From Methanobacteriota archaeon (GTDB lineage Archaea > Hydrothermarchaeota > Hydrothermarchaeia > Hydrothermarchaeales > BMS3B), in assembly GCA_013152685.1 (NCBI GenBank), contig JAADFX010000024.1, forward strand, positions 1-32,846: 32,846 nucleotides of DNA, read 5' to 3'. Below the pieces are notes generated by a model, which was not told where the DNA came from, made no database searches, and was given only the letters and a program-made list of their open reading frames with translations. Positions 4,917 through 32,190 of this stretch are shown here, one piece after another. How positions within the stretch are numbered: the first letter of the stretch is position 1; every line of letters begins with the position of its first letter. A program made the translations under genes and the position numbers.

Positions 4917-5501
4917 TTACATCTTCATCTCTCCCTCGCCCATCTCCATCTGCATTCCTTCCATTCCCTCCATGCCGCCCATGGCCATGCCGCCGAGGCC
5001 CTTCACCACCTCGGCCGTCACCTCCTCGTAGGTTAGAACCTCACCGCCGTGCTGCGATGCGAAGGCGTGGGCATCCTCACTCCTGGCAAAAGGTACAAGG
5101 TCCTCGCCCATGGGGCCGCGCACCTCGCTACCCTTCACATAGTACGCCTTCCTGGCGTCGGCGTACTGCTTTGTGGCATAGTCGGTAACGAAGACGGCCG
5201 CCACCTCTGAGGCGTCCACCCAGTGCTTCGGCTCATTCTTGACGCTCAGCCCCAGCAGGAACCTGAACATGTCCTTGGGGGAGTCGAAGTGGTAGCGCTC
5301 GCCGCTCTTCAGCACCACCTGGGCGCGCCACTCGGGGTACTTGGCTGGCATCATGCCGCACACCGGGCACTTGTCGTCCATCGTCGGCTCCACCGGCGCA
5401 ACCGCCGGCTCCTCCTGCACCTGAGCGCTCTCCGCGGGTTTTCCGGTGCACGCAGCGAACAGGAGCAGAAAGCCCATAAGAATCAGAGCCTTCGTCCTCA
5501 A
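4917..5501 (-). CDS. NosL-like copper-binding lipoprotein with Met-rich tail
   Basis: 194 residues from TTG 5501. This start is chosen because GGAGGTGAG lies about 4 nt upstream and translation then begins directly with a lipoprotein signal (RTKALILMGFLLLFAAC, lipid Cys at 18). An in-frame ATG at 5546 would add 15 residues and put the ribosome site inside the gene. The NosL core contains CPVCGM (Cys45, Cys48, Met50) and the following DSPKDM and YVKGSEVRGPMG segments. NosL proteins are extracytoplasmic Cu(I) chaperones known from N2O reductase maturation. The last 23 residues are almost only Met, Gly and Glu, with nine Met, a plausible extra copper site. No nosZ is visible in this window, so the client protein is unknown. 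Confidence 0.85.
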   Translation of the reverse strand: MRTKALILMGFLLLFAACTGKPAESAQVQEEPAVAPVEPTMDDKCPVCGMMPAKYPEWRAQVVLKSGERYHFDSPKDMFRFLLGLSVKNEPKHWVDASEVAAVFVTDYATKQYADARKAYYVKGSEVRGPMGEDLVPFARSEDAHAFASQHGGEVLTYEEVTAEVVKGLGGMAMGGMEGMEGMQMEMGEGEMKM

Positions 5502-5549
5502 ACCGCTCACCTCCATTTCTAAATTTTTGAGAAGTTCTTCTGACATGTG

Positions 5550-11044: not shown

Positions 11045-11346
11045 CTCTCCACCTCTATTGTCGTGTCGAAGCCCGCGAAAACCGGCCTGCCGAAGCCGGT
11101 GCAGGAGGCGTGGTAGCACAGCTGCGCTGGCATGTCCCTGAAGCAGCCCGAGAAGTCCACTGTGCTTGGATTGCGGGTGGAGTAGCAGTCTGTGGCTATT
11201 GACAGGTCGCTCAGACCCAGGGCCCTGGAGAGGGAGCGCTTCTCCTCCAGCAGGACGTGGGGCGCCTCTGAGGAGGCGAGCAGCAGGAAGGTGAGCAGCT
11301 GGAGCAGGAGCACCGCCAGAGCCAGCACTCCAGGACGCACCCTCAT
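11041..11346 (-). CDS. Small exported four-cysteine protein
   Basis: 101 residues from ATG 11346. It overlaps the NosL stop upstream (ATGA) and the permease start downstream (ATGA), so it is translationally coupled on both sides and is very probably a real gene. The first 25 residues are a signal peptide or membrane anchor (LALAVLLLQLLTFLLLASS). The outside part has exactly four cysteines, at 54, 68, 77 and 82 (spacing C-x13-C-x8-C-x4-C), around TDCYSTRNP, SGCFRDMPAQLCYHASC. I do not recognise a family. Two disulfides or a metal site are both possible. Being between a Cu(I) chaperone and its ABC permease makes metal or thiol transfer a reasonable guess. Confidence 0.8.
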   Translation of the reverse strand: MRVRPGVLALAVLLLQLLTFLLLASSEAPHVLLEEKRSLSRALGLSDLSIATDCYSTRNPSTVDFSGCFRDMPAQLCYHASCTGFGRPVFAGFDTTIEVER

Positions 11347-11813
11347 GGAGGCTTCACGCCCCTTTCCACAACCTCCTGGAAGGTGAGCACCTCGGTGGCA
11401 GGGCCCATGGAGTACTCCCTGCGGAAGTTCTCCGCATCCCCGCTGTCTGCGAAAACCGCTATTCCGAATCCCATGGGGGTGGAGATGGCGGCGTTGACCA
11501 CGAAGTAGGCGTCCTCGACGGATACCCACTCCTGGGTGTAGTAGTCGCGGCAGTATATCTTCAGGATGTTCTCCCGGTGCTTCGAGTGGTAGATGAACAT
11601 GTCGCCGGGGTCGTCGAAGAAGACCACCTCCCTGCTCCCGAGTATCGCCTCGCACGCCCAGTTTTCGTATTCCTTTACAAACATTCCGCACTCGGGGCAG
11701 CGCGCGCCCTCGGGCACGGGCACAGGCGAGAGGTCCGGCGAGACGACCCTCTCGCCCTTCTGGGCGCATCCCGCCAGCAGCAGGAGGAAGAAGAGGAGCA
11801 CCAGCACGCGCAT
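11343..11813 (-). CDS. NosL-like copper-binding lipoprotein (second copy)
   Basis: 156 residues from ATG 11813. The signal peptide ends in a lipobox (LLAGC, Cys16). NosL features are CPECGM (Cys39, Cys42, Met44), FFDDPGDM, and the C-terminal TPMGFGIAVFADSGDAENF. It therefore resembles the copy at 4917-5501, but it lacks the Met-rich tail and differs widely in sequence, so this is an old duplication or separate acquisition. It is the first gene of a five-gene operon: NosL, small Cys protein, permease, ATPase, membrane protein. AGGA lies about 8 nt before the ATG. NosL homologues bind Cu(I) in the N2O reductase pathway; no nosZ or nosD is present here, so the client is unknown. Confidence 0.85.
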   Translation of the reverse strand: MRVLVLLFFLLLLAGCAQKGERVVSPDLSPVPVPEGARCPECGMFVKEYENWACEAILGSREVVFFDDPGDMFIYHSKHRENILKIYCRDYYTQEWVSVEDAYFVVNAAISTPMGFGIAVFADSGDAENFRREYSMGPATEVLTFQEVVERGVKPP

Positions 11814-13976: not shown

Positions 13977-14903
13977 GTGAAGCTGAGGCTGGACTACCTT
14001 CAGACTTTTAAAGAGGTTGTTGAAGAGGGAAGTTTTCTCGGCGCCTCAAAGGCGCTCGGGATGAGTGTTAGTACAATAAGTCTGCACATAGACGCTGTAG
14101 AAAAGTTCTTTGAGGCGAGGCTCCTGGAGAGGAACGTCAGCGGGGTTAAGCTGACCAGAGAGGGCGAGATCGCCTACAACAGCATAAGGGAGCTGTTTAC
14201 CCTCCTGGAAAAGACGAAGAAGGGCATAAAGAACCTGACGACAAAGATAGTGAACATCGCCATCGGCTGCGTCGGCGTGCCCATAATCGCTGAGATTCAG
14301 ATGGGCTACAAGACTGTGCAGCCGGATGTGGACGTGAGGGTGAAGCTCACCGGGGAGTACACCTGCCTGGACCTGCTGGAGCACGGGGAGGTGAGCGTCG
14401 TCCTAGCAGGGTACCCCGCACCCCTGAAGCTGGGCGACGGCTACCGCGTGGAGGAGATAGGCTACGACCGCTTTGTGCTGATTGTGCCCCCCAACCACGA
14501 GCTGGCGAACAAGGAGGAGGTCACCGTAGAGGACGTCCTCTCCTACCCCATGGTGACACTGAACAAGGGGTACAGCAGCACCGCTATAGAGGACACCCTG
14601 AAGGAGCTGAGGAACATTGAGAAGGAGCAGAAGATAGAGTGCAGTGTTAACGACATCTTCTCCCAGATATACGGCGTCTCCTCGGGCTTGGGTACGGCGA
14701 TTGCGAGCTACGTGCTGTCGAAGCGGTACGAGGAGGGGGGGCTGGTGGTGATAAAGGAGATCAAGGACTTCACGGATGAGAGGCCGATATACGCAATAAC
14801 CACGGACAAGGCGCTGGAGAACCCGGTCATCGCGGACTTTTATGCGTATCTCGTTGAGAGAGGTACGGAACTCCTGGAAAAATACCGTGTGAGAGGCGGT
14901 TAA
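13977..14903 (+). CDS. LysR-type transcriptional regulator
   Basis: 308 residues from GTG 13977. The N-terminal winged helix is typical of LysR: LQTFKEVVEEGSFLGASKAL, then SVSTISLHIDAVEKFF, then LTREGEIAY. A linker helix and a periplasmic-binding-protein-like effector domain follow (VNIAIGCVGVPIIAEI, then DRFVLIVPPNHELA). The next gene starts at the base after its stop codon, so it is the first gene of the operon LysR-V4R-TusA-YeeE-YeeE and probably senses a sulfur-related effector. LysR proteins are mainly bacterial, so an old acquisition from bacteria is possible. The effector is unknown. Confidence 0.9.
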   Translation: MKLRLDYLQTFKEVVEEGSFLGASKALGMSVSTISLHIDAVEKFFEARLLERNVSGVKLTREGEIAYNSIRELFTLLEKTKKGIKNLTTKIVNIAIGCVGVPIIAEIQMGYKTVQPDVDVRVKLTGEYTCLDLLEHGEVSVVLAGYPAPLKLGDGYRVEEIGYDRFVLIVPPNHELANKEEVTVEDVLSYPMVTLNKGYSSTAIEDTLKELRNIEKEQKIECSVNDIFSQIYGVSSGLGTAIASYVLSKRYEEGGLVVIKEIKDFTDERPIYAITTDKALENPVIADFYAYLVERGTELLEKYRVRGG

Positions 14904-15431
14904 ATGAGGGAAAATGCAAAAAAGTACATACCCTACATATGGCTGGACGACGAGACGGGACATCCCCTCATGATGAACGAGAGGTGCACCATAATCTTCA
15001 GCGAAACCCTCAGCACCCTCAGGCTCAGCCTCTACAAGATCATCGGGGAAGGCTCCGAGATGCTGCTGAGGCTGATCGGCAGGGACATGGGGAAGAAGTA
15101 CGCCCAGCTCGTGCTGAAGCAGTACCCGGAGCTCAACGAGGTCAGCAAGCACACGAGGATATACGAGCTCTGCTCAATAATCCTGAGAAACACCGGCTTC
15201 GGGCAGATTAAAATCCTGGAGCTGGACGTGGAGAAGCCCAGGATGAGGGCGATAATAAAGGACGCCCCCTCGGGGCTTGGCGTCAAGTCCCTCCCGCCGG
15301 TGTACAACCTGGAGGCGGGCATGCTGTGCGGGATCCTGGAGGAGATCTTCGACAGGGAGATGTTCGTCGCCGAGTACAGGTTTAATGAGCACGAGGATAA
15401 CTACGAGCTTACCATAACGAAGGTGGAATAA
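14904..15431 (+). CDS. V4R-like ligand-binding domain protein
   Basis: 175 residues, ATG directly after the LysR stop. The layout resembles the V4R (4-vinyl reductase) small-molecule-binding fold. A helical N-terminal half contains EMLLRLIGRDMGKKYAQLVL. Then comes a strand-rich part with MRAIIKDAPSGLG, then NLEAGMLCGILEEIFDREMF and a final strand pair EYRFNEHEDNYELTITKV. Family members have the order dup-loop, then GxxxG-like helix, then vExxC; here the usual final Cys pair is missing. The gene is coupled to LysR and TusA, so it may sense or carry a sulfur ligand. I hold the V4R label with moderate confidence only. Confidence 0.55.
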   Translation: MRENAKKYIPYIWLDDETGHPLMMNERCTIIFSETLSTLRLSLYKIIGEGSEMLLRLIGRDMGKKYAQLVLKQYPELNEVSKHTRIYELCSIILRNTGFGQIKILELDVEKPRMRAIIKDAPSGLGVKSLPPVYNLEAGMLCGILEEIFDREMFVAEYRFNEHEDNYELTITKVE

Positions 15432-15653
15432 ATGCGGGTTCTGGACGTGAGAGGTGAGATATGTCCCGTGCCCCTGGTTAAGTGCGTTAATGAGATCAAG
15501 AAGATGAAGCCCGGGGAGGTGCTCAAGGTTATATCCGACCACCCCCCGGCGAAGAAGAGCATCCCCATGGAGATGGAGGCTCAGGGCCACGAGTACACAA
15601 TAGAGGAGAACGGCGCCGAGTTCACCATAACAATAACTGTGAAGGGTAAGTGA
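15432..15653 (+). CDS. TusA-family sulfur carrier
   Basis: 73 residues, ATG directly after the preceding stop. It has the TusA core with the CPVP motif (Cys10 in RGEICPVPLVK), followed by MKPGEVLKVISDHPPAKKSIP, all as expected. TusA proteins carry sulfur as a persulfide on that Cys. In operons with YeeE/YedE transporters they receive or deliver sulfur taken up from outside. A second TusA, with CPMP, is encoded at 24921-25154, with a DsrE-type partner instead. The YeeE gene downstream overlaps this stop (GTGA at 15650). Confidence 0.9.
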   Translation: MRVLDVRGEICPVPLVKCVNEIKKMKPGEVLKVISDHPPAKKSIPMEMEAQGHEYTIEENGAEFTITITVKGK

Positions 15654-16126
15654 GTATGCGCTACCTTTCCCCGGTGGTAGCCGCAGTACTGCTGGCAGCG
15701 CTGAACGTGGTGCTGTACGTAACCCTGGACCGCCCCTGGAGCATAACCACGGGGGAGAGCCACCTCGTCGCCTACATCGAGAATCTGTTTTTTCCGGAGC
15801 ACGTGAGCAGCAGCCTCTACTTCAGAAAGTACATCCCGGAGCTCAACTGGCGGGTGTGGCTGAACTTCGGGATAATCCTGGGAGCCTTTATCGGCGCGTA
15901 CCTCGGCAGGGACTTCAAAATCAGGATACCCGCCGCCAAGTCGCGATTTGTGCAGGTTTTTATCGGCGGGGTCCTGATGGGCTACGGGGCAAGACTCGCG
16001 CTGGGCTGCAACGTCGGGCACATCATGTCAGGGGTGCCCCAGATGGCGGTCTCCAGCTTCCTGGCCTTCGGCGCCATCGCCGCGGGCGCATACCTGGGAG
16101 GAAGAATACTGCTGAGGCTGGTGTGA
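15650..16126 (+). CDS. YeeE/YedE-family transporter, first half
   Basis: 158 residues from GTG 15650 (GTGA overlap with tusA); ATG 15656 is an alternative. It has about four hydrophobic helices. The key segment LALGCNVGHIMSG, near 122, holds the single conserved-type Cys of this half. YeeE/YedE (TsuA-like) proteins import thiosulfate or a related sulfur compound, using cysteines in the pore. Usual bacterial members are about 350 residues in one chain; here the two halves are separate genes that abut without a gap (stop 16124-16126, ATG 16127), so they likely assemble as a heterodimer. Confidence 0.85.
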   Translation: MSMRYLSPVVAAVLLAALNVVLYVTLDRPWSITTGESHLVAYIENLFFPEHVSSSLYFRKYIPELNWRVWLNFGIILGAFIGAYLGRDFKIRIPAAKSRFVQVFIGGVLMGYGARLALGCNVGHIMSGVPQMAVSSFLAFGAIAAGAYLGGRILLRLV

Positions 16127-16657
16127 ATGGAATCCCTGGTGGGCTTTGCCATAGGCGTGGCGATAGGGTTCGTGCTGGAGAGGGGGCAGTTCTGCATGGC
16201 ATCCGCCTTCAGGGACTTTTTCCTCTTCAGACACACCCACCTGCTGAGGGCGGTGATGCTATACCTGGCGCTGCTGACTCCCGCCTTCTTCCTGCTCCAC
16301 TCCGCAGAGCTAGTGGAGACCTACCCCTACGTGAAGAACGGCGGGCTGTTCACGGTAATCGGGGGTGTGATTTTCGGGATTGGAATGGTGCTGGCGGGGG
16401 GCTGCGCCTCGGGAACCCTCTACAGGATAGGGGAGGGCTACGTGACGTCGCTGGTGGCACTGATAGGGATGCTCGTGGGGATAGCCATCTTCGGGGAGAG
16501 CTACCCCTGGGTACTGAGGGCGCTTATAGCACCCACAGAGTTTGGAAAGATGACCGCCGGGGAGCTTCTGGGAATAACCCAGCTCCAGGCTGTTGTACTG
16601 GGAACCCTGCTGTTCTCCGGGCTATACCTGCTGCTGGGGAGAAGGTTCAGACGATAG
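16127..16657 (+). CDS. YeeE/YedE-family transporter, second half
   Basis: 176 residues, ATG at the base after the previous stop. About five helices are visible. Cysteine motifs are ERGQFCMASAF (near 24) and LAGGCASGTLYRIGEG (near 93), matching the pore cysteines of the YeeE/YedE family. It forms a split transporter with the gene at 15650-16126. Co-transcribed tusA suggests that imported sulfur is passed to TusA. It is the last gene of the LysR operon; the next gene has its own TATA-like element. Confidence 0.88.
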   Translation: MESLVGFAIGVAIGFVLERGQFCMASAFRDFFLFRHTHLLRAVMLYLALLTPAFFLLHSAELVETYPYVKNGGLFTVIGGVIFGIGMVLAGGCASGTLYRIGEGYVTSLVALIGMLVGIAIFGESYPWVLRALIAPTEFGKMTAGELLGITQLQAVVLGTLLFSGLYLLLGRRFRR

Positions 16658-16709
16658 GAGTTCCAATTTGGAAAAACTTTTATGTATAAACAAAAGAGGA
16701 GTTAGACTT

Positions 16710-17483
16710 ATGAAGTATTTGCTGCTGGTTTTTACTCTGCTGGCGGGGCTGGCGGGGTGCACCTCGGCGCCGGAGAAGAAGCTCCCCTACAACTACAGGG
16801 AGGAGGCCCTGCTCTCAGCCCTGGCTGAGGGAACACCCGTGGTGCTGGAGATAGCCGCAGACTGGTGCAGGAACTGCATTGAGCAGCAGCCAATAATGGA
16901 GGAGCTCAGGGAGAGGTTTCCCGAGGTGACCTTTCTGCTGGCAGACTTCGACAGGGAGAAGGAGCTGGTGGAGAGGTACGGTGTGAGGGGAGTGCCCTAC
17001 TTTGTGCTTTTTGACTCCTCCGGGAGGGAGTTCGCCAGGATAAGCGGATTCCAGAAGAAGGAGACGCTCGAAACGCTGATAAACCAGATACTCCACAAAA
17101 ACTACGTGCTGAACGCCTCCTTCTCCACCTTCGAGGGGCTGGAGGACCCGGAAGTCAAAATTGAGAACAGAAGTCTGGTGGTAATAAAAACGGTGGCGCT
17201 GGAAAACCTCTCCATCTGGGGTGAGGGGGTGGAGGTGGCAATCGGTAACCTCACCCTGAGGATTGTGAATGTGACCCCAGACCTCTTCGCCATAAGGGAC
17301 TTCGAGACCCTCAACGTTACCCCGGGCACCCCCATTGAGATAGTGGCGGAGCTGCCCTCCAACTACACCCTGTACGAGCCGCTCAACCTGGACATCAAGA
17401 TAGGAATATGGGACGAGGCGTGCTGCGGAAACTACAGGGATGTGCTCCTGTGGGCGAACCTCACCGCCGCCACGGCACAGTGA
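16710..17483 (+). CDS. Thioredoxin-fold lipoprotein with C-terminal beta domain
   Basis: 257 residues from ATG 16710, with AGAGGAG 9 nt upstream. Signal peptide with lipobox (LLAGLAGC, Cys17). A thioredoxin fold follows, with active site ADWCRNC (Cys53, Cys56) and the cis-Pro loop GVPYFVLF, close to the C-terminal domain of DsbD or to TlpA-type thiol-disulfide proteins. About 115 further residues look like a beta-sandwich and end with a CC pair (DEACCGNY). An upstream TATA-like TTTATGTATAAA (16678-16689) suggests its own promoter. The protein would keep outside thiols reduced or handle sulfur or copper sites; the partner is unknown. The rhodanese at 17744 follows after 260 bp. Confidence 0.85.
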   Translation: MKYLLLVFTLLAGLAGCTSAPEKKLPYNYREEALLSALAEGTPVVLEIAADWCRNCIEQQPIMEELRERFPEVTFLLADFDREKELVERYGVRGVPYFVLFDSSGREFARISGFQKKETLETLINQILHKNYVLNASFSTFEGLEDPEVKIENRSLVVIKTVALENLSIWGEGVEVAIGNLTLRIVNVTPDLFAIRDFETLNVTPGTPIEIVAELPSNYTLYEPLNLDIKIGIWDEACCGNYRDVLLWANLTAATAQ

Positions 17484-17590
17484 AGATAATTTAAAATACC
17501 CGCCGGCATCTCCAGGCGAGGAGGGGGCAATAGTTTCGAATTTAGCGTAAGGGCTTCTCCTATATTTTCGTCATTACTGCAAAAGCTTTC

Positions 17591-17605
17591 GAAAAATTTA
17601 AATAC
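17591..17605 (+). promoter_or_regulatory. Promoter region of the exported rhodanese gene
   Basis: The 260-bp gap 17484-17743 is A/T-rich. GAAAAATTTAAATAC is a strong TATA candidate, predicting a leader of about 110 nt; a second A/T element (TTAAAAAATAATTAA, 17667-17681) would give a start near 17700. TTTCGAA elements occur at 17534-17540 and 17587-17593. The rest of the gap shows no gene except the minimal reading frame at 17700. Confidence 0.4.
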
Positions 17606-17699: not shown

Positions 17700-17747
17700 G
17701 TGTTGGAGACCTGCCAACCCGCTGAAAAAAGGAGGTGGAGGGCATGA
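17700..17747 (+). CDS. Possible 15-residue leader peptide upstream of the rhodanese
   Basis: GTG 17700 follows a strong ribosome site (AGAGGAGGTGAAA). It encodes a 15-residue peptide, MLETCQPAEKRRWRA, whose stop TGA overlaps the ATG of the rhodanese gene (ATGA). The second ribosome site for the rhodanese (GGAGGTGG) lies inside this frame. It contains one Cys and a basic end. It may be a coupled leader peptide that controls rhodanese translation, or simply chance. Confidence 0.35.
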   Translation: MLETCQPAEKRRWRA

Positions 17748-18910
17748 ATAGAGGTTTAATGGCGCTGCTTGTGGGCGTGCTGTTTCTGGCGAGCGCTTCG
17801 CTGGTGAGCGCCGAGGAGTACCCCGGACCGCTGGTGTCGATGGACTGGGTGCAGGAGCGCCTGGACATCATAAAGGATCCAACGCAGACTGAGATTCGCC
17901 TCGTCGAGGTAAGCAAGAGCAAGAGCTACCAGAAGGAGCACATCCCCGGTGCGGTGAACGTGAAGTGGAGTAGCGAGGTGTTCCTGCCGTACACCAACCG
18001 CATGGTGCTGGATTATGCGGCCATGAAGGCCGTGATGAAGAAGCTGGGCGTGACCCCGGACACTCACATAGTCATCTACGGCGACAGCCTCACCATGGCA
18101 ACCCGCTTCTACTGGACCCTGAAGTTCTGGAACGTGGAGAAGATCAGCGTCATGGACGGCACCAAGGCTGCCTGGAAGAAGGAGGGCCGCCCGCTGACAA
18201 CCGAGGTGCCAGAGGTTGAGCCGCGCGAGTATCCGCTCAAGTACCCGCCAAACGGCAAGATATACGCCGTCAAGGAGTTTGACGTGATGCGCGGCCTCGC
18301 CACCGGCAAGGTTATCTTCGTGGACACCAGGCCCAAGGCCTACTACGATGGCAAGAAGTTCTCGGTGAGCAAGTGGGTGAGGAGCGGCCACATACCCGGT
18401 GCTATCCAGTGGTCCGCCCCCGAGGAGGTGTCCAAGGACGGCAAGTTCCTGCCCGTTGACCAGCTGAAGAAGATGGCCGAGGAGAAGGGCATCACCGGCG
18501 ACAAGGAGATAATAGTGTACTGCAACACCGGCGTCAGGTCCTCCACAACCTGGTTCATCCTCAGTGAGCTCCTGGGCTACGAGAACGTCAAGAACTACGA
18601 CGGCTCCCTGAGGGAGTGGGCAAACGAGTTCTACCTGCCGATGGAGCCCGACAACTTCAACATCTACAAGGACTTCCCCAAGACACCGCTCCAGGAGCTG
18701 AAGGAGGCCACTGACGCCAACGCAGAGAAGGTCGCCGCCCTGGAGAAGGAGGTCCAGGACCTCAAGCAGCAGCTTGCCGAGACCAAGAAGATAGCCGAGG
18801 CTGCCAAGGCCGAGGGCAAGGGTGTCTGCGGACCCACGAGCGTTGCTCTGCTTGCGGCGCTTCCGCTGGCAGGGTATGCGCTGCGCAGGAGGTTCATGAA
18901 GAAGAACTAG
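17744..18910 (+). CDS. Exported two-domain rhodanese (sulfurtransferase) with CGP-type C-terminal anchor
   Basis: 388 residues from ATG 17744, with GGAGGTGG 6 nt upstream. A Sec signal peptide ends at about LVSAEE. Two rhodanese domains follow. The first has lost the catalytic Cys (VIYGDSLTMATR). The second has an active loop YCNTGVRSS with Cys260. This is the thiosulfate/3-mercaptopyruvate sulfurtransferase layout. A coiled coil (about 320-358, AALEKEVQDLKQQLAETKK) comes next, then Cys-Gly-Pro at 362-364, a hydrophobic helix and RRRF near the end. Cys-Gly-Pro, helix, RRR is the CGP-CTERM sorting signal described in Thermococci; the protein is probably anchored outside. Cys260 and Cys362 are its only cysteines. 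It likely transfers sulfane sulfur outside the cell, near the thioredoxin lipoprotein and the YeeE importer. Confidence 0.88.
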   Translation: MNRGLMALLVGVLFLASASLVSAEEYPGPLVSMDWVQERLDIIKDPTQTEIRLVEVSKSKSYQKEHIPGAVNVKWSSEVFLPYTNRMVLDYAAMKAVMKKLGVTPDTHIVIYGDSLTMATRFYWTLKFWNVEKISVMDGTKAAWKKEGRPLTTEVPEVEPREYPLKYPPNGKIYAVKEFDVMRGLATGKVIFVDTRPKAYYDGKKFSVSKWVRSGHIPGAIQWSAPEEVSKDGKFLPVDQLKKMAEEKGITGDKEIIVYCNTGVRSSTTWFILSELLGYENVKNYDGSLREWANEFYLPMEPDNFNIYKDFPKTPLQELKEATDANAEKVAALEKEVQDLKQQLAETKKIAEAAKAEGKGVCGPTSVALLAALPLAGYALRRRFMKKN

Positions 18911-31760: not shown

Positions 31761-31784
31761 TCTTTTTGTTTTGTAAATTTTTTT
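31761..31784 (+). terminator. T-tract terminator after the small winged-helix gene
   Basis: TCTTTTTGTTTTGTAAATTT followed by more T gives a run of broken T-tracts beginning 8 nt after the stop, as in archaeal termination sites used by RNA polymerase and FttA. Confidence 0.6.
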
Positions 31785-31848
31785 GGGTGGAAATTTTTGG
31801 TTGTGCTGTGCGGTAAGCTTTTCTTGCCTTTCGCCAAAGACTTCTGCG

Positions 31849-32190
31849 GTGAATGTATTGAGTGGCGTGGAGGAGATAAGCGTCGAGGAGGCCGCGGAGC
31901 TGGTCAGAGGGGGAAGCGCCATCCTGCTGGATGTGCGCACGCCCCAGGAGTACCACGCCGAGCATGTGGAGGGCGCCAGGTGGATACCCCTGGACGAGCT
32001 CCCGGAGAGGCTGGACGAACTGGACAGGGAGAAGGTAATCCTGGCGTGCTTCTGCAGGAGCGGCATGAGGAGCTCGAGGGCGTGTGAGATTCTCAGAGAG
32101 CACGGCTTCAAAAAGCTCTACAATGTGCGCGGCGGGATAACCGCCTGGAAGAGGGCGGGCTTCAGAACAGTCTCGAGGGGGAAGGTTTAA
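31849..32190 (+). CDS. Single-domain rhodanese
   Basis: 113 residues from GTG 31849; the open frame runs upstream but this start is where the domain begins (NVLSGVEEISVEEAAELVRGG). Rhodanese core: AILLDVRTPQEYHAEHVEGARWIP, active loop ACFCRSGMRSS with catalytic Cys in CRSGMR, then NVRGGITAWKRAGF. CRSGMR is a thiosulfate- or persulfide-sulfurtransferase loop. No signal peptide, so it is cytoplasmic, unlike the anchored rhodanese at 17744. It lies 40 bp before the oxidase gene, and a TATA-like GGTTTAAG at its end may serve that gene. Confidence 0.88.
   Translation: MNVLSGVEEISVEEAAELVRGGSAILLDVRTPQEYHAEHVEGARWIPLDELPERLDELDREKVILACFCRSGMRSSRACEILREHGFKKLYNVRGGITAWKRAGFRTVSRGKV

Follow-up and report, generated by a model that had tools for sequence, protein, structure and literature searches.

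Our analyses placed a cysteine-containing C-terminal sorting signal of the CGP-CTERM type in a second archaeal lineage, Candidatus Hydrothermarchaeota, where it is carried by multiheme cytochromes and a predicted sulfurtransferase. Here cytochromes are among the carriers of the tag, its presumed protease is frequently undetected, and the rhodanese is a new member. The signal might explain how proteins of electron and sulfur transfer are kept at the surface of these archaea. In addition, since the tag occurs without its presumed protease, genomes of one phylum with and without MrtA, and with and without the tag, form a natural comparison in which the missing enzyme that transfers the lipid or cleaves the tail could be sought. 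The window, meaning the whole stretch of 32,846 nucleotides that was analyzed, belongs to an assembly of 1.80 Mb in 130 contigs (G000, 96% complete), and its host is an uncultured deep-sea archaeon of the genus Ca. Pyrohabitans, placed within Ca. Hydrothermarchaeota. Scanning named genomes with a six-sequence alignment recovered rhodanese orthologues at 94, 89, 74, and 73% identity from MAGs labelled Candidatus Hydrothermarchaeota archaeon and Candidatus Pyrohabitans (JdFR-16, JdFR-17). With these four congener MAGs (G001–G004), the genus is represented by five genomes, including G000.

The rhodanese gene runs on the forward strand from an ATG at 17744 to a stop codon at 18910, codes for 388 amino acids and is directly preceded by a Shine-Dalgarno-like AAAGGAGGTGG; the TATA/BRE-like element further upstream (Table 1) is a putative promoter. 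Two rhodanese stretches were recognized (PF00581, E 1.3e-31). The protein contains exactly two cysteines, 260 and 362, the former unchanged in all 17 aligned homologues, and its N-terminal rhodanese domain has none. The closest solved protein was the Thermus rhodanese 1uar, both by sequence (E 1.9e-48) and by fold (Foldseek, E 8e-27), and the fold search also pointed to mycobacterial CysA2/CysA3. The TST-type arrangement, two rhodanese domains with an active-site-loop Cys in the second, was found with PF00581, 1uar, the alignment and Foldseek alike. These enzymes resemble the window protein in having a tandem fold whose C-terminal domain contains one active-type Cys; however, they match residues 26–301 only and leave the signal peptide, stalk and C-terminal anchor unmatched. 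The AlphaFold model (17 sequences) had high confidence for residues 26–300, a single helix of 42 residues at 315–356, low confidence at 359–363 around the CGP and a further helix at 364–387. By its sequence, the protein is an exported TST-type tandem rhodanese, that is, a predicted sulfurtransferase with one active-type site (Cys260). The first-pass annotation had described this reading frame as a signal peptide, two rhodanese domains and a tail of Cys-Gly-Pro, helix and RRR, and its description was correct in every testable point. A plasmid search gave matches to ordinary sulfurtransferases only.

Table 1. Features of the rhodanese gene and its upstream neighborhood in the window.
Feature	Position	Strand	Basis or remark
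LysR-type regulator	13977..14903	+	Best NCBIfam family selenium metabolism-associated LysR, below cut-off; 4/4 congeners
V4R/XylR_N-like protein	14904..15431	+	PF06505, weak (18.7 bits against 23); 4/4 congeners
YeeE/YedE-type sulfur transporter, C-terminal half	15650..16126	+	PF04143 positions 175–310
YeeE/YedE-type sulfur transporter, N-terminal half	16127..16657	+	PF04143 positions 1–148
Thioredoxin-fold protein, N-terminal lipobox-like LAGC	16704..17483	+	PF00085; 3/4 congeners
TATA/BRE-like element CGAAAAATTTAAATA	17590..17604	+	Exact string located 5' of the rhodanese gene
N-terminal signal peptide, residues 1–23, MNRGLMALLVGVLFLASASLVSA	17744..17812	+	Hydrophobic; model helix 3–18
Tandem rhodanese domains, TST type, ~residues 24–300	17813..18643	+	PF00581, 1uar, Foldseek
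Catalytic Cys260, CNTGVRS loop of C-terminal rhodanese	18521..18523	+	Invariant in homologues
Long helix, predicted stalk, residues 315–356	18686..18811	+	AlphaFold model
CGP-CTERM-type sorting signal, Cys362-Gly-Pro/TM helix/RRRFMKKN	18827..18907	+	Leave-out profile, A3 match

The tail of the rhodanese (GVCGPTSVALLAALPLAGYALRRRFMKKN) is tripartite, with C362-G-P, a hydrophobic helical stretch and a basic cluster at R381–R383 after a spacer of 16, all at the C terminus of an exported-looking protein. It resembles the CGP-CTERM signal (TIGR04288) of Thermococcales, in which exported proteins end in the same three parts, and some tails of the window genome and of the phylum pass the curated cut-off of that model. 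Unlike the known signal, the window tail is below the cut-off (9.1 bits against 21), has a spacer of 16 instead of 13, and sits on a rhodanese in a different phylum and in a genome where MrtA was not found. Another tail of the same genome scored 21.9 bits; in total, TIGR04288 at E<=10 gave 11 matches in G000, one over the cut-off and 10 being true C-terminal tails, and the eleventh (L010), not a C-terminal tail, was dropped. Since neither the window tail nor that of C105 was recognized by TIGR04288, we built a phylum profile (A3) from 35 Hydrothermarchaeota tails. This profile had 12 matches in G000, namely the window tail and 11 other proteins, and all 12 were C-terminal tails in which CGP lies 21–27 residues from the end; each of the 12 proteins also has a hydrophobic signal at its N terminus. 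The proposed anchor had hinged on other proteins of the genome ending in the same way, and with 11 of them present the attempt at refutation fails.

The same tail is found on several unrelated proteins of this one genome. Besides the rhodanese, these are three multiheme cytochromes (C130:22358, C130:25897, C43:21885; L219, L220), which contain 9, 8, and 7 CxxCH motifs, a subtilase that has Ig-like domains, a propeller of the PQQ type, two NosD-type beta-helix proteins and four proteins without a Pfam family. Haem attachment to c-type cytochromes takes place outside the cytoplasm; the CGP-tagged cytochromes must hence be exported, and the tag marks exported proteins. Similar CGP-tagged cytochromes were also seen in several further Hydrothermarchaeota genomes. 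To avoid circularity, the rhodanese rows were removed from the profile (30 of 35 rows kept), and this leave-out version, run against the 435 open reading frames of the window, returned the rhodanese tail at E 3.5e-14 with the next best at 0.65. The full profile matched none of the 21 control archaeal genomes and all three Thermococcaceae-type genomes. In G016, the rhodanese tail and the tail of an unrelated propeller shared 93% of their protein and 78% of their DNA sequence (32 codons), as would be expected for a signal under selection; recent gene conversion as the source of such near-identical tails was ruled out, the DNA identity being far below the protein identity. We consider it likely that the rhodanese is exported and belongs to the CGP-type surface set of this genome.

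Across 296 archaeal genomes, each at least 85% complete, TIGR04288 exceeded its cut-off in 27, of which 17 belong to a single family, f14, and the other 10 to Hydrothermarchaeota, a phylum with 16 genomes in this set, so that the earlier guess of an anchor wider than Thermococcales held true. We read f14 as Thermococcaceae because two of its proteases match the NCBIfam model CPBP_Pyro_MrtA (269 and 312 bits). A3 gave 114 matches in Hydrothermarchaeota, spread over 19 of the 23 genomes; some of the genomes without detected MrtA are weak cases, such as G007, with one match at E 8.7e-4. Genus g3 shows a drift of the motif to Cys-Ala-Pro (L039, L171, L172), and a CPBP protease was undetected there. 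According to the passage on this signal in a 2016 paper, CGP-CTERM was at that date known from Thermococcales only (PMC4870337), and a literature search on the term CGP-CTERM found nothing beyond that paper.

The anchor of the rhodanese varies among its orthologues. All five genomes of the genus, and G016 too, have the CGP type, and G006 has the CAP type. In the sister genus g2, four copies (one cut by a contig end) end in a plain helix that lacks Cys, as is also the case in G015, and other orthologues have N-terminal lipobox-like starts. Given this variation, membrane attachment is what is conserved.

Hydrothermarchaeota tails fall into two classes by the spacer between CGP and the basic cluster, short (12–15) or long (16–18). 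The spacer set comprised 50 distinct tails out of the 114 A3 matches, two of which gave no spacer; very short frames (e.g., L067) and tails failing the motif/hydrophobicity filter were left out. When redox clients were defined as rhodaneses or proteins with at least four CxxCH, a long spacer was found in 19/20 redox proteins and 3/28 others, counts in which orthologues are not independent. At the level of families clustered without their tails, the figures were 4/5 for redox and 3/14 for other clients (one-sided P 0.038), and the single redox exception was L050/L180. A Pfam scan showed an ethylbenzene-dehydrogenase-like protein with CxxxCH and a cytochrome-d1/YVTN-like propeller among the long "others"; reassigning these two as redox would strengthen the contrast, but it would be post hoc. 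All 19 Thermococcaceae tails had a spacer of 13, a sample biased to the short form since it consists of top hits, eight loci coming through a 20-position model fitted to that form. The association of spacer class with client type should be taken as a lead rather than a result.

MrtA (NF040590) is the predicted protease paired with CGP-CTERM, a prediction reportedly made in Haft's 2024 paper. MrtA was present in 17/17 CGP-tagged f14 genomes and in 7/23 Hydrothermarchaeota genomes, none of them in the genus of the window. Five of these seven were found among 16 Hydrothermarchaeota tested with an MrtA alignment, A2 (G010, G011, G012, G014, G018), and the less complete G013 and G017 through PF02517 and clustering. 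MrtA was not found in G000, G001, G003, and G004 with A2 at E<=1e-8, nor in G002, which was searched by PF02517 only. The 23 genomes thus divide into five with tag and MrtA, 14 with the tag and no detected MrtA (the window's family, G015, G016, G020, G021), two with MrtA only (G014, G018) and two with neither; the ~3-kb loci around MrtA in G014 and G018 contained no C-terminal hydrophobic tails. In seven genomes (G006, G008, G009, G016, G020, G021, G022), no match to a CPBP protease reached E<=1e-3, and all of them except G022 carry CGP or CAP tails, 11 in the case of G016; five of those six were rechecked at E<=10 and gave no CPBP match over the cut-off. Single absences are weak because the genomes are draft MAGs, and the agreement across several genomes that are 93–100% complete is stronger. 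Homologues of MrtA were also noticed outside Thermococcaceae and Hydrothermarchaeota (L147, L148, and L149 in G197, G130, and G032), in genomes where A3 found no tails; they may serve another Cys-type signal. One report demonstrated that MrtX of Myxococcus, part of a related system, cleaves C-terminal signals that contain Cys (PMC11980579). The MrtA and MYXO-CTERM/MrtX systems are comparable with the present one through the MrtA homologues of the phylum, but none was found in the window's genus, and the three phylum homologues tested scored 152–157 bits against a cut-off of 200.

Whether Cys362 is lipidated and the tail cleaved is, in our estimate, evenly balanced. It is possible, though we think it doubtful, that the tail is instead a permanent single-pass anchor whose Cys-Gly-Pro serves as a helix-capping or packing motif, neither lipidated nor cut. 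The orthologues of g2 and G015 with a plain helix without Cys indicate that the enzyme can work that way, the failure to find MrtA in G000 and the six CGP/CAP genomes without a CPBP protease at E<=1e-3 point in the same direction, and long-spacer tails are better suited than short ones to spanning the membrane. Yet Cys and Pro, neither of which a plain membrane helix would require, are unchanged in 35/35 tails (partly circular, the rows having been picked by motif), the same tail occurs on unrelated proteins, and the same motif is found in a second lineage in which it co-occurs with MrtA in 17/17 genomes. A replacement of MrtA by another CPBP protease, processing the CGP tails in the window's genus, likewise seems rather unlikely. 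The sole clear CPBP protein of G000 (L042, 224 aa) lies outside the MrtA clade (support 0.997); proteases of this type occur in 5/5 genomes of the genus, in both g2 genomes and in G015, with conserved EE...R and H motifs. However, G006, G008, G009, G016, G020, and G021 are tagged in the absence of any CPBP match at E<=1e-3, and the gene in G000 adjoins genes that, by their motif, look like cobalamin methyltransferases, and not tagged clients. The second PF02517 match of G000 (L043) was discarded on inspection, as it falls within a SecY-like protein.

Processing by an enzyme of the archaeosortase/exosortase type is very improbable. PF09721 does exceed its cut-off in eight of the 23 genomes (G000, G003, G006, G008, G009, G010, G012, G015), but the CGP-bearing genomes G001, G002, G004, G016, G020, and G021 lack any PF09721 match at E<=1, and on this distribution archaeosortase was rejected as the general partner. 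Archaeosortase-type genes were seen adjoining a non-MrtA CPBP gene in G010:C195 (L185/L105) and G012:C9 (1445393–1448413), with a looser pair in G015:C29. On a broader reading that we put forward tentatively, CGP-CTERM would be a general surface anchor of Hydrothermarchaeota, handled where MrtA is absent by an enzyme family new to Cys signals, and the two length classes would differ in anchor or in envelope position. The short class would then serve adhesins, propellers and a protease, and the long class, often ending in LPLxxYxLxRRR, would serve multiheme cytochromes, the rhodanese and the ethylbenzene-dehydrogenase-like haem protein.

For the rhodanese itself, we propose that the CGP-CTERM-type signal, on its helical stalk, would hold the enzyme at the outer face of the cytoplasmic membrane. 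Sec export would be followed by lipidation of Cys362 and by removal of the helix-RRR part, for which an enzyme different from MrtA would be responsible. Cys260 may carry a persulfide derived from thiosulfate or polysulfide, the sulfur of which would be passed towards the neighboring YeeE/YedE-type transporter, with the thioredoxin-like lipoprotein as the putative reductant. This role in sulfur uptake is plausible but somewhat short of probable; we favor surface capture of sulfane sulfur and its delivery to the transporter because the transporter/thioredoxin neighborhood is conserved. The order LysR, V4R-like, transporter halves and rhodanese was kept in all four congeners, and the thioredoxin-like gene lies between them in three, missing there in L075. 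In G005, the transporter halves have two copies of the rhodanese next to them, and the thioredoxin gene lies on the opposite side. Against this explanation counts that the authors of the JdFR MAGs found no thiosulfate reductase (PMC6775978). Excerpts of two studies describe sulfate reduction genes and multiheme cytochromes in Hydrothermarchaeota MAGs and, in one of them, a thiosulfate sulfurtransferase gene; the same excerpts contain nothing on an anchor (PMC6775978, PMC6759336).

The rhodanese might alternatively act not in sulfur import but in detoxification or in oxyanion (selenite/tellurite) or metal redox chemistry at the surface together with the cytochromes, which we regard as the less likely role. 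Here the nearest known systems are ExtH of Geobacter and a rhodanese of Acidithiobacillus ferrooxidans, which according to one report are exported surface rhodaneses linked to extracellular redox; ExtH, however, has a lipoprotein anchor, and the window rhodanese is archaeal and anchored C-terminally (PMC6148476). The match to the ExtH model (NF040901), 81.9 bits and under the cut-off of 200, speaks for such a role, as do the long tail class held in common with multiheme cytochromes and the selenium-associated LysR family of the neighboring regulator. The same report places a LysR gene upstream in Geobacter extHIJKL clusters (PMC6148476). Nevertheless, the genes adjoining the rhodanese are the YeeE/YedE-type transporter and the thioredoxin, not cytochromes.

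Some further observations were made in the window. The YeeE/YedE-type transporter (15650–16657) consists of two adjacent genes in permuted order, the C-terminal half coming first, and this arrangement is kept in four congeners. At 31783–32190 another rhodanese is encoded, which has one domain and a loop of the active type (CRSGMRSS); its start codon is uncertain, and it is possibly exported. In addition, two proteins that look NosL-like by a CPxCGM motif are encoded at 4917–5546 and 11343–11813, near ABC transporter genes, and the latter is conserved in congeners together with its neighbors.
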